Origin: Pseudomonadota bacterium
Lineage (GTDB): Bacteria > Desulfobacterota > Binatia > Binatales > Binataceae
Length of the DNA stretch: 64,000 nt
Direction: 5' to 3'
Assembly (NCBI GenBank): GCA_021324755.1
Contig: JAJPIL010000014.1
Span: forward strand, 124,001-188,000
The notes beneath the pieces were generated by a model. That model ran no database searches. It was given only the letters and a program-made list of their open reading frames with translations, and was not told the origin of the DNA. Below, piece after piece: positions 34,702-37,254 of this stretch (its first letter is position 1; each line of letters starts with the position of its first letter). The translations under genes and the position numbers were made by a program.

Positions 34702-34974
34702 AATCAAGTGTTAGTATACACGATAAGAGCCGCAATTGGGACTTCGTTGCAACCGAGTCGATACAATAGCCGTAAGGCACGACGAAGTATCTCGCCGCGA
34801 GCATTTACGCGGCTTCGATGCGGAAGGCGCGGCGAAGCGTTGTTCTTCGTGAGCTGGGCTAGACGGTGAGAGTTTTCTCTCGGCAGGCGTAGCGCCCGAC
34901 CGGCGTAAAGATAGTGAACTTCTAGACTTAGTTGGACGCTCATAATCTTGCACGTTTTTTTAAGTGTTAATGTT

Positions 34975-36030
34975 GTGGCGACGATAAAAGCAGGAATTAT
35001 CGGCGAACGGGGAGCGGGGAAAACGACACTGTTCCGTGCCCTTACCGGACTTGTGTCCTCCGCCGGTTATCCGGGCGAAAAACAGCGCGCACGAGTAGGT
35101 CAGATTAAGGTTCCCGATTCGCGACTCGATTTTCTAGCGGCAATCTATCAGTCCCAGAAAAAAGTCCAAGTTGAAATTAGCCTTCTGGATTTCGCACCAG
35201 CGTCGGTCGACAAGCATGGTAAGGGCGTTTTGGATGGCGGATTGATGCCGATGCTTCGCGAACTCGACGCGCTGCTGATCGTGATTCCGGGGTTTCGCGA
35301 ACCGCCGCCCAAAGTGGCAGACGTCCTTGAAGGTATAGAAACCGAGCTTATACTAGCCGACGTTGATCAGGCCGAACGAAGGCTTACGCGTATCAAGAAG
35401 GAGAGAGGCCCCAACGAGTTCGAGCGAACAACGTTGGAAAAATGCCTGGACTGGTTGAACTCAGGCCGTCCGCTGCGCACACTCGAGCTCAGCACTCAGG
35501 AAGCGAAAGCTATCTCCCATTTCTGTTTTCTGTCCCGCAAGCCCGCCCTTGGAGTTTTAAACTATCAGGCTCAAGCCCCAGATGAGGCGGAGTTGGCCAA
35601 CCACGACGACAAGATCGAGGCGCAAGGGCTTGAAGTTTTACCGATTGACGCCCTGTTCGAAGCTGAACTATGGGAGCTCGAGCCCGCTCAGCGGCTTGAG
35701 CTTCTCAAAGAGGCCGGGCTCAACAGGTCCGCAAGGGAACGCTTAATCGAGGCTCTCTATCATCGCTTGCAGCTGATCACTTTTTACACCGCTGGTCCCA
35801 AGGAGGCTCGGGCGTGGACCTTGTCCGGCAAATCCACCGCGCTCGACGCCGCAGGACAAATACACAGCGACATGGCGCGCGGCTTTATCCGCGCCGAAGT
35901 GATTAGTTTTGGTGATATGGAACGCTTTAAGTCGGAAGCTGGCGTTCGAGAGGCTGGAAAGCTGCGCCTTGAATCGCGCGACTATATCGTCCAGGACGGC
36001 GATATTATTCGTATACGGTTCAAGACCTGA
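34975..36030 (+). CDS. YchF-like NTPase paralogue with broken switch II
   Basis: 351 residues. The last 85 residues are a near-standard YchF TGS end (LITFYTAGPKEARAWTL, IHSDMARGFIRAEVISF, LRLESRDYIVQDGD), so the family is sure. The N-terminal G domain is unusual: the P-loop reads GERGAGKTT instead of NVGKST, and the usual DIAGLVKGA is replaced by LDFAPASVDKHG, losing the DxxG Gly. The G4-like NYQAQ retains Asn. Hydrolysis is therefore probably altered. GTG 34975 puts eight residues before the P-loop as in YchF; TTG 34948 is the alternative. Stands alone, not beside pth as true ychF does. Confidence 0.87.
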   Translation: MATIKAGIIGERGAGKTTLFRALTGLVSSAGYPGEKQRARVGQIKVPDSRLDFLAAIYQSQKKVQVEISLLDFAPASVDKHGKGVLDGGLMPMLRELDALLIVIPGFREPPPKVADVLEGIETELILADVDQAERRLTRIKKERGPNEFERTTLEKCLDWLNSGRPLRTLELSTQEAKAISHFCFLSRKPALGVLNYQAQAPDEAELANHDDKIEAQGLEVLPIDALFEAELWELEPAQRLELLKEAGLNRSARERLIEALYHRLQLITFYTAGPKEARAWTLSGKSTALDAAGQIHSDMARGFIRAEVISFGDMERFKSEAGVREAGKLRLESRDYIVQDGDIIRIRFKT

Positions 36031-36249: not shown

Positions 36250-37254
36250 GTGAAAGCGCAAACAACCAATTCATTCGGCGAAGCCTTCGAACCGGATAAG
36301 CAAGTCGAGCGAGTGCGAGTGGGCGTATCGGCATGCCTTGTGGGGAAGCCCGTACGCTACGACGGCGGGCATAAACGCGACGACTTTCTGGTGAACGTGA
36401 TTGGTAGACTGGTAGAGTGGGTAATTGTTTGCCCGGAAGCTGAGCTTGGGTTGGGTGTCCCGCGAGAGCCGATGCGCTTGTTCCACACCGCGCAAGGCGT
36501 ACGCCTGGTGGGTAACCATTCGGAGCGCGACTTTACGGCGGCGATGTACGCGTTCGCAGAGAAGCGCGTACGCGAGCTTCAGGAGCAAAAGCTCTGCGGC
36601 TACGTGCTCAAGAGCAACTCCCCCAGCTGTGGCGCGCAGGGAGTACCTGTATGGAGTGCTGACAAACCGCCGGTTCGTAACGGGCAAGGTTTATTCGCCG
36701 AGGTCCTATTGCGTCAGTTTCCAAATCTACCTGTGGAAGAAGAACATCGACTTTGCGAGCCGCAAATATGCGCGAACTTCGTCAGACGCATCTTCGCATA
36801 CCATCGAATCCAAACCTTTTTCGCAGAAAATTGGCGCTTTGCCGACCTCGTCGCCTTTCATAGAGCACATAAGCTTTTGCTGCTGGCTCACTCGCCAAGA
36901 CATTATGCCGAGCTGGGACGGTTGATAGGTCAATCGGCTAAGTCGATGGAACGCGAGGAGCTTCGCCGCGCCTACGAAAACCGCTTCATGGCCGCACTGA
37001 AACATCCGCCAACCACCGGTAAACACGTCAACGTTCTGCAGCACGTCGCAGGTTTACTGAAAAACTTTATCGACCCGTTGTCGTACAGGGAATTGCTTGA
37101 AGCAATCGAGGATTATCGACGCGGTTTGGCTCCGCTGAATCTCCCAATGAGGTTAATCCGTCGCCAAGTCGTTTCCCATGATATCGCCTGGCTTAAATGT
37201 CAGGTCTATCTGGCATCCGATCCGGCCGAATCGCTTTTTAACAGCTCAACCTAG
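36250..37254 (+). CDS. TudS-like (DUF523) and DUF1722 fusion protein
   Basis: 334 residues. The N-terminal half is DUF523, the family of the [4Fe-4S] thiouracil desulfidase TudS: the three expected cluster Cys are in VSACLVGKPVRYDGGHK, VCPEAELGLGVPREPM and NSPSCGAQGV. From about residue 165 the DUF1722 (YbgA-like) domain follows (FHRAHKLLLLAHSPRHY). The fused form occurs in many bacteria and is suggested to act in sulfur removal or nucleobase salvage; the substrate here is unproven. GTG 36250 has no strong binding site. Confidence 0.9.
   Translation: MKAQTTNSFGEAFEPDKQVERVRVGVSACLVGKPVRYDGGHKRDDFLVNVIGRLVEWVIVCPEAELGLGVPREPMRLFHTAQGVRLVGNHSERDFTAAMYAFAEKRVRELQEQKLCGYVLKSNSPSCGAQGVPVWSADKPPVRNGQGLFAEVLLRQFPNLPVEEEHRLCEPQICANFVRRIFAYHRIQTFFAENWRFADLVAFHRAHKLLLLAHSPRHYAELGRLIGQSAKSMEREELRRAYENRFMAALKHPPTTGKHVNVLQHVAGLLKNFIDPLSYRELLEAIEDYRRGLAPLNLPMRLIRRQVVSHDIAWLKCQVYLASDPAESLFNSST

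Follow-up and report, generated by a model that had tools for sequence, protein, structure and literature searches.

Non-canonical YchF homologues with altered nucleotide-binding and switch motifs as the only YchF found in genomes of the Binataceae

Introduction

YchF is a ribosome-binding protein that, to our knowledge, is regarded as a universal ATPase. Members of the YchF/OLA1 ATPase group (TIGR00092), which include YchF of Escherichia coli and human OLA1, are single-copy proteins in which a G domain, a helical domain and a TGS domain (PF06071) follow one another in that order. They are further characterised by hydrolysing ATP in preference to GTP and by associating with the ribosome and IF3. 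Some of the residues on which these proteins depend have been described: E. coli YchF variants altered at P11/N12 are ATPase-deficient, as reported in PMC8138138; His114 is described as critical in PMC10144078; and Table 1 of the latter lists Asn230 and Phe127 of OLA1 as contributing to nucleotide binding. The purpose of ATP hydrolysis by YchF/OLA1 was described as still unknown in a passage of a 2021 review (PMC8779481). A search of one open-licence full-text library found no paper on a switch-less or non-canonical YchF.

The window considered here, i.e. the whole stretch of 64,000 nucleotides from a genome of the family Binataceae (class Binatia) that was analysed, carries a gene whose product resembles YchF/OLA1 in its domain order, PF06071 domain, copy number and predicted full-length fold, as well as in its Walker A Lys, Mg-site Asp, base-stacking Phe and G4 Asn. 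Unlike YchF/OLA1, the protein has 351 rather than approximately 364 residues, falls under the TIGR00092 cut-off, and lacks the PNV of the P-loop, the NYPFCTIEP of switch I, the DxxG, the His114 loop and the acidic residue of G4. Because these five defining motifs are absent and the score lies under that cut-off, the protein is not classed as a strict YchF ATPase. It is the only YchF homologue of its genome and, as far as examined, of its family, and it is of a non-canonical kind. Very likely, this non-canonical homologue takes the place of YchF.

The window gene and its motifs

The YchF-like open reading frame lies on the forward strand, as do all features given below, at 34975-36030, where it begins with GTG and encodes 351 amino acids followed by a stop codon; taken mechanically, the same reading frame begins at a TTG at 34948. 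The C-terminal end (35773-36021) is a TGS-type domain, which PF06071 (YchF-GTPase_C; cut-off 27 bits) matches with 113.7 bits. TIGR00092, which models YchF at full length, spans nearly the whole protein and scores 225.1 bits, short of the curated threshold of 279.2. The first-pass annotation of this DNA had pointed to a near-canonical TGS end, an altered P-loop and the replacement of the switch II DxxG by DFAP, and all three are borne out. The P-loop (G1; 35002-35028) reads GERGAGKTT, compared to GLPNVGKST in canonical YchF, and is still a valid Walker A motif (GxxxxGK[ST]), in which the YchF-typical Pro11-Asn12 has become Arg-Gly. At G3/switch II (35188-35199), the Asp of DxxG is retained and the Gly is gone. 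Alignment brings out three losses beyond those annotated earlier. In the switch I region (35050-35100), NYPF(C)TI(E/D)P is absent together with its Thr, the column of which is occupied by Lys; the loop at the site of the canonical catalytic His114 (35293-35328) is shortened, with the base-stacking Phe kept at its start; and G4 (35560-35571) reads NYQA, with the invariant Asn retained and the Glu of NxxE gone. N196 and F107 of the window protein align with Asn230 and Phe127 of human OLA1. The helical (coiled-coil) domain, placed by the predicted structure at 35314-35523, contains predicted helices at residues 114-142, 148-162 and 174-183.

The gene was read in 35 of the 41 family genomes examined, the 35 representing 17 genera. 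Every copy read keeps the P-loop Gly-Lys, the Ser/Thr after the Lys (S/T16), the Mg-site (G3) Asp73 and the G4 Asn, and 32 of them keep the base-stacking Phe. None of the 35 has the P-loop Pro-Asn, the switch I Thr (K or R in that column in 35/35), His114 (the loop being shortened) or an acidic residue (E/D) at G4, and the G3 Gly is missing from all of them by both alignments used (DFAP in 31, DFAA in two, DFVA in one and DFAQ in one). For comparison, 80 loci were gathered by similarity to the window protein; these are mostly canonical YchF, with a best identity of 40 %, and none is placeable in the window's family. Asn12 is present in 73 of the 80, Thr37 in 71, Gly76 in 79 and the His in 74. 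The 80 loci were not picked by motif, whereas the canonical group was partly defined by N12, V13, T37 and G76, so its 100 % motif score is circular; likewise, NYPF(C)TI(E/D)P with its Thr occurs in 20 of 20 canonical copies of the class, where 'canonical' is partly defined by that Thr. The motif counts of the 35 copies set against the 80 loci indicate that the losses of the family are joint ones and that the residues retained are those that hold the nucleotide. Since the losses are identical in 35/35 copies, the altered motifs are not a matter of chance or assembly error, and an artefact of assembly or contamination was ruled out by the same pattern in 35 genomes of 17 genera.

The altered G domain is a maintained redesign and not decay. 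In 11 within-family pairs, dN of the G core ranges from 0 to 0.16 vs a dS of 0.08 to 1.37 (Nei-Gojobori method, Jukes-Cantor corrected; dS approaches saturation in some pairs), and the G domain of the family is under purifying selection. Mean identity between family and canonical proteins is 33 % in the N-terminal part of the G domain and 53 % in the TGS domain, the corresponding values among canonical proteins being 66 % and 63 %. Conservation across the 35 copies extends to the stretch that now stands in for switch II (D in 35, F in 35, A in 34, P in 31, N in 29, P in 30, K in 31, E in 33 and Q in 28), and an L and a D, each in 35 of 35, are also conserved beyond DFAP. A pseudogene, or relaxed decay, was rejected on the grounds that the reading frame is intact, the dN of the G core is far below dS, and the switch II replacement is conserved.

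In G proteins, use is made of the backbone NH of the DxxG Gly, and Pro, which lacks that NH, stands there in 31 of the 35 copies. Together with the simultaneous loss of Pro-Asn, Thr37, Gly76 and His114 in 35/35, this makes it rather unlikely that the protein is an active NTPase of unchanged YchF function that works through other residues, e.g. those of DFAPNPKEQ or the Lys/Arg that occupies the column of the switch I Thr. Still, that reading would fit a replacement stretch that is conserved and under purifying selection, the invariance of GK[S/T] and the Mg-site Asp within the family, and the fact that YchF, having no equivalent of the Ras Gln, is in any case an unusual hydrolase (Table 1 of PMC10144078).

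The only YchF of the genome and of the family

Within the window genome (95.5 % complete), PF06071 matches one place only, and the canonical-YchF profile finds the same place with 269.8 bits, its remaining matches covering the N-terminal part with 58 bits or less. Based on profile search, exactly one full PF06071 copy is present in 40 of the 41 family genomes; the remaining genome (G397, 83 % complete) has no PF06071 match, and another (G030) has an additional sub-cut-off fragment of 22 bits that contains a stop. All 35 copies that were read are of the window's non-canonical type. The first-pass annotation had viewed the protein as a paralogue, a regulator rather than a true YchF, to be compared with the canonical YchF of the genome if one was present. 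No canonical YchF lies beside it by PF06071 or by the canonical profile; rather, the gene is the only YchF found there. The annotation had also held that an identical pattern in all YchF of the lineage would speak against its proposal, and that pattern is what the copies read display (35/35), which counts against the regulator-paralogue half of the claim. Because the lineage yielded no YchF other than proteins of the window's type, the reading as a specialised paralogue fails, and a paralogue beside a canonical YchF was rejected on the single YchF revealed by both profiles.

It might be argued that a canonical YchF does exist and is missing from the assemblies, the window gene then being a regulator paralogue after all. 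The genomes are drafts, that of the window itself being incomplete, and at least 12 genomes of the phylum do carry both kinds. However, each of the 41 family genomes has at most one full PF06071 match, with 35 read as non-canonical, the canonical profile shows no second YchF in the window genome, and canonical copies are readily found elsewhere, accounting for 20 of the 64 class copies read outside the family. This explanation is already contradicted, and we hold it to be extremely improbable.

Predicted structure

An AlphaFold run on the window protein, with a 40-row alignment of family and class sequences, gave a model with a pLDDT of 88.3 and a pTM of 0.86, in which the only run with pLDDT below 50 is residues 33-36, in the switch I region. 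In a Foldseek comparison with the PDB, the 15 best matches are all YchF/OLA1, with 8kie_y at the top (TMq 0.83), and VIA-align places OsYchF1 (5ee1) first, with a Z of 33.5 and 2.8 Å over 337 residues. DRG/Rbg1 and the archaeal GTP-binding protein 1wxq have a similar G plus TGS fold and are more distant (Z 15.6 and 19.4, respectively, by VIA-align) than YchF/OLA1 (Z 30-33). The window protein is predicted from this model to adopt the full-length YchF fold, although a fold alone shows no activity. The top match is an E. coli chain on the 50S subunit that, in alignments, has Ala where Haemophilus influenzae YchF (1jal) has His114; because that Ala aligns with His114 of 1jal, the 8kie structure appears to be of an H114A variant, as read from the alignment rather than from the entry.

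Non-canonical YchF across the class, the phylum and beyond

Outside the window's family, 64 copies were read within the class. Canonical ones number 20 and non-canonical ones 44, among them a truncated copy; groups f2, f4, f6, f7, f9, f11 and f96 have canonical copies in some genomes and non-canonical copies in others. With the window's family counted in, PF06071 matches 132 of the 145 class genomes, among which two full matches occur only in G354 and G392, an extra fragment in G048, G052 and G030, and a partial match alone in G381. The motif counts for the class draw on 43 of the 44 non-canonical copies, the truncated L259 being left out.

For the phylum, 247 genomes were searched with profiles of the non-canonical (A2) and canonical (A1) alignments, and those that gave an unclear result were searched again with PF06071 and read. 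In the first census, up to eight candidates were scored per genome, with thresholds of our own choosing (420 bits or more with A1 for a canonical copy; an A2 E-value of 1e-50 or less for 'non-canonical only'), and the PF06071 search covered 41 unread 'non-canonical only' genomes plus 25 that were weak or empty. The outcome was a canonical copy in 128 genomes, a full-length non-canonical copy as the only YchF in 94, a much shorter protein (the mini-YchF described below) alone in six, and no PF06071 match in 19, one of these with a fragment. Among the 94 genomes with a non-canonical copy only, 72 are at least 95 % complete, and the copy was read whole in 91 and partly in three (G061, G166 and G274). 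At least 12 of the 128 genomes with a canonical copy also carry a full-length non-canonical one. Since the non-canonical proteins form a separate group and at least 12 genomes hold both, canonical and non-canonical YchF are paralogues or xenologues in the wider sense.

In a first set of 60 copies from the phylum, P-N is present in four, the switch I Thr in one, Gly-Lys in 59, a His in the His114 column in 11, and both the G4 Asn and the G4 Glu/Asp in all 60; the DxxG Gly is found in 41 or 35, depending on the alignment. Columns near G3 shift in this way in the class as well, such that Gly76 is counted in 8/43 or 1/43 (41/60 vs 35/60 in the phylum). A second set comprised 37 of 41 further copies, with the incomplete L327, L340, L342 and L358 left out, and has P-N in none, the Thr in two, Gly-Lys in 32, the DxxG Gly in 12, the His in 10, and the G4 Asn and Glu/Asp in all 37. 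In five full-length copies (L329, L332, L343, L352 and L354), the P-loop has GR or GQ for GK, and each is the only PF06071 match of its genome (G156, G104, G289, G268 and G184, respectively). Judging from these motifs, non-canonical YchF has generally lost both switch I and P-N. The window's family shares with other non-canonical YchF, of the same and of a neighbouring phylum, a position apart from canonical YchF, an absent or altered switch I and, mostly, the lack of PNV. It differs from the other full-length non-canonical copies that were counted in that those keep the G4 N..E/D and many of them a DxxG-like string. Hence, of the full-length copies counted, only those of the window's family are without the acidic residue at G4, because the others keep Glu/Asp, and by the same motif counts the family has lost more than most non-canonical YchF. 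Inactivity need not extend to the whole non-canonical group, since others retain that DxxG-like string.

In a 123-row tree, the 37 canonical rows form one side of a branch with an SH-aLRT of 100 and a length of 0.49, and the non-canonical rows of the window, its family, the class and the phylum are all on the other side, the window's family having an SH-aLRT of 100. A second tree, of 119 rows, again gave 100 for the canonical side, with a weak deep order among the non-canonical groups. Both trees are quick ones made without bootstrap and with the root not inferred, and, because of the weak deep order, whether the non-canonical groups are one clade depends on the root. The trees do not decide between an ancient duplication with differential loss and repeated replacement.

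Beyond the phylum, 57 genomes were searched in the phylum of a Bradymonadaceae genome, where nine of the 10 best matches are non-canonical. The phylum of a gammaproteobacterial genome gave one match each in 60/60 genomes, with 309-349 bits, and the six best are canonical. Several side observations concern other departures from the canonical motifs. Six proteins from Phycisphaeraceae, Phycisphaerales and a Planctomycetota genome (L063, L067, L073, L077, L108 and L133), each the one PF06071 match of its genome, have a P-loop of the form GLP[YF]VGKT[AT] and no NYPF switch I and fall on the canonical side of the tree; they seem to have lost switch I independently. Two proteins of Bacteroidales (L079 and L101), also the one PF06071 match per genome, combine the P-loop G[LI][AT]N[ST]GKTT with a switch I that has been rewritten. 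Finally, copies of the family f38 (L152, L161, L167, L219, L222, L231 and L233) have F-x-[ED]-I-D in the G3 region and no DxxG, and two f38 genomes (G082 and G252) keep a canonical copy as well.

Mini-YchF and genomes without YchF

A mini-YchF of approximately 230 residues is the sole PF06071 protein in six genomes of the phylum (G094, G101, G161, G219, G265 and G286; groups f50 and f53), and is perhaps the most surprising thing seen in the analysis. In a further genome, G193, it occurs alongside a canonical copy in pieces, the seven loci being L362-L368 (from G193, G161, G219, G286, G101, G094 and G265, respectively). Six were aligned, L364 being excluded because its start was not placeable. 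These six have 229-235 residues and begin with M-K-I-[GA] at an ATG, GTG or TTG, with AAGGAG or AGGAG upstream of some of the starts. Mini-YchF is like the window protein in its PF06071 TGS domain and is collinear with YchF across the coiled coil and the TGS domain, with an hhalign probability of 100 % against the non-canonical alignment (A2) and 99.8 % against the canonical one (A1). It differs in its length and in that no P-loop, no G4 segment and no nucleotide-binding motif is present in the six aligned; PF06071 is the only Pfam family above cut-off in the three that were scanned.

In two genomes on single contigs, G070 and G076 (99 % and 98 % complete), YchF was not found by PF06071 or the non-canonical profile, and the same searches found none in G077, G171 and G173. 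The canonical profile gave only matches with E-values of approximately 1e-15 to 1e-18 in these five genomes, which are probably Obg-type proteins. Thus, the supposedly universal YchF seems to be absent from the near-complete G070 and G076.

Possible modes of action

As far as the motifs tell, the three-domain YchF scaffold, the nucleotide-holding residues and the TGS domain of the window protein are kept under purifying selection, and the joining of kept binding residues with lost catalytic and switch residues is the pattern to be expected of a protein that would bind nucleotide and hydrolyse it poorly. To this extent the other half of the first-pass annotation's proposal, binding in the absence of normal hydrolysis, stands as a prediction. 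On the most likely reading, to which we give about even chances, the window protein would bind nucleotide, not turn it over in the ordinary way, and serve on the ribosome as a factor with one state. An adenine or other nucleotide, probably ATP, would be held by the P-loop and the G4 Asn as a structural ligand and hydrolysed very slowly or not at all; the protein would not undergo the usual switch I/II cycle, and it would bind the ribosome through surfaces of the G, helical and TGS domains in a single state. Regulation may then lie in the amount of protein rather than in an ATPase clock. By analogy, such a mode resembles that of the ATPase-deficient E. coli variants (P11/N12) and of the Ala114 chain on the 50S subunit (8kie), in which the same positions are altered. 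Unlike those laboratory variants, the changes seen here are natural and common to 35/35 family copies, and the family has also lost switch I, the DxxG Gly and the G4 Glu.

In E. coli, an ATPase-deficient YchF mutant did not rescue cold sensitivity, and mutation of the ATP site removed the effect of YchF overproduction on oxidative stress, according to passages of PMC8779481. Because the ATPase-deficient mutant fails there, one would not expect a YchF that does not hydrolyse ATP to function in E. coli. These results count against the non-hydrolysing reading unless the lineages in question have adapted, and the mini-YchFs suggest that some did; that a P-loop-less mini-YchF stands alone in six genomes makes a YchF role without turnover more likely.

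The absence of an acidic residue at G4 from all 35 family copies read could indicate that the protein no longer recognises the base and perhaps no longer binds nucleotide. If so, the G domain would be a fold only, and the protein an RNA or ribosome scaffold acting through its helical and TGS domains. Elsewhere in the wider group binding has indeed been lost, since some non-canonical relatives outside the family are without the P-loop Lys (5/37) or without the whole P-loop. A scaffold of this kind would agree with the absence of the G4 acidic residue and of the P-loop Pro-Asn from 35/35 copies, with the low-pLDDT run in switch I, with the TGS domain being the part best kept (53 % mean identity to canonical vs 33 % for the N-terminal part of the G domain), and with the existence of mini-YchFs elsewhere in the phylum that are wholly without a P-loop. 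Nevertheless, it appears distinctly unlikely for the window protein, as invariance of Gly-Lys-[S/T], Asp73 and the G4 Asn in 35/35 would be odd without a ligand, and replacement of the G4-equivalent Asn of human OLA1 by Ala abolished nucleotide binding (Table 1 of PMC10144078).

Taken across genomes, binding without turnover may be one stage of a broader process, for which we put the probability a little short of even. Over much of one phylum, and over part of a neighbouring phylum, the ATPase would have been stripped stepwise, losing first the switches and His (as in the window's family), next the P-loop Lys and lastly the whole P-loop (as in mini-YchF); the stripped form would have replaced canonical YchF as the only copy, the core job would reside in the coiled coil and TGS domain, and the nucleotide would be at most structural, with hydrolysis dispensable. 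If this is true, YchF, regarded as a universal ATPase, would be able to do without ATP hydrolysis. The genomes offer a natural series, in which some have as their only YchF a protein that seemingly holds nucleotide and neither splits nor senses it, others have as their only YchF a protein without a P-loop, and still others, closely related, have the canonical enzyme; such a series could separate the contributions of scaffold, binding and hydrolysis and show what the splitting of ATP is for. It also carries a warning, i.e. that a PF06071 match alone should not count as a YchF ATPase.

Gene neighbourhood and translation starts

The gene neighbourhood, compared in 15 stretches of the family, gave no lead to a function based on an operon. 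The D-Ala-D-Ala carboxypeptidase gene upstream recurs near the YchF-like gene in two of the 15. The gene next downstream (36250-37254), the product of which has a 2-thiouracil desulfurase domain (PF04463) fused to DUF1722, recurs in 0/15. A gene for an LPG_synthase_TM-type membrane protein lies downstream in 10 of the 15 (L198-L202, L205, L208-L210 and L212), followed by a gene with a DUF4412 product in the one example scanned; the window is without this arrangement.

At the position six codons before the P-loop, where 33 of the 35 family copies have a start codon, the codon is GTG in 14 and TTG in 19, and never ATG. The other two copies have no start there; one of them is that of the window, which has ATA at this position and its GTG three codons upstream. 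Among 43 other non-canonical copies from the class, 36 use ATG, and the non-ATG starts of the family may reflect selection for low expression.
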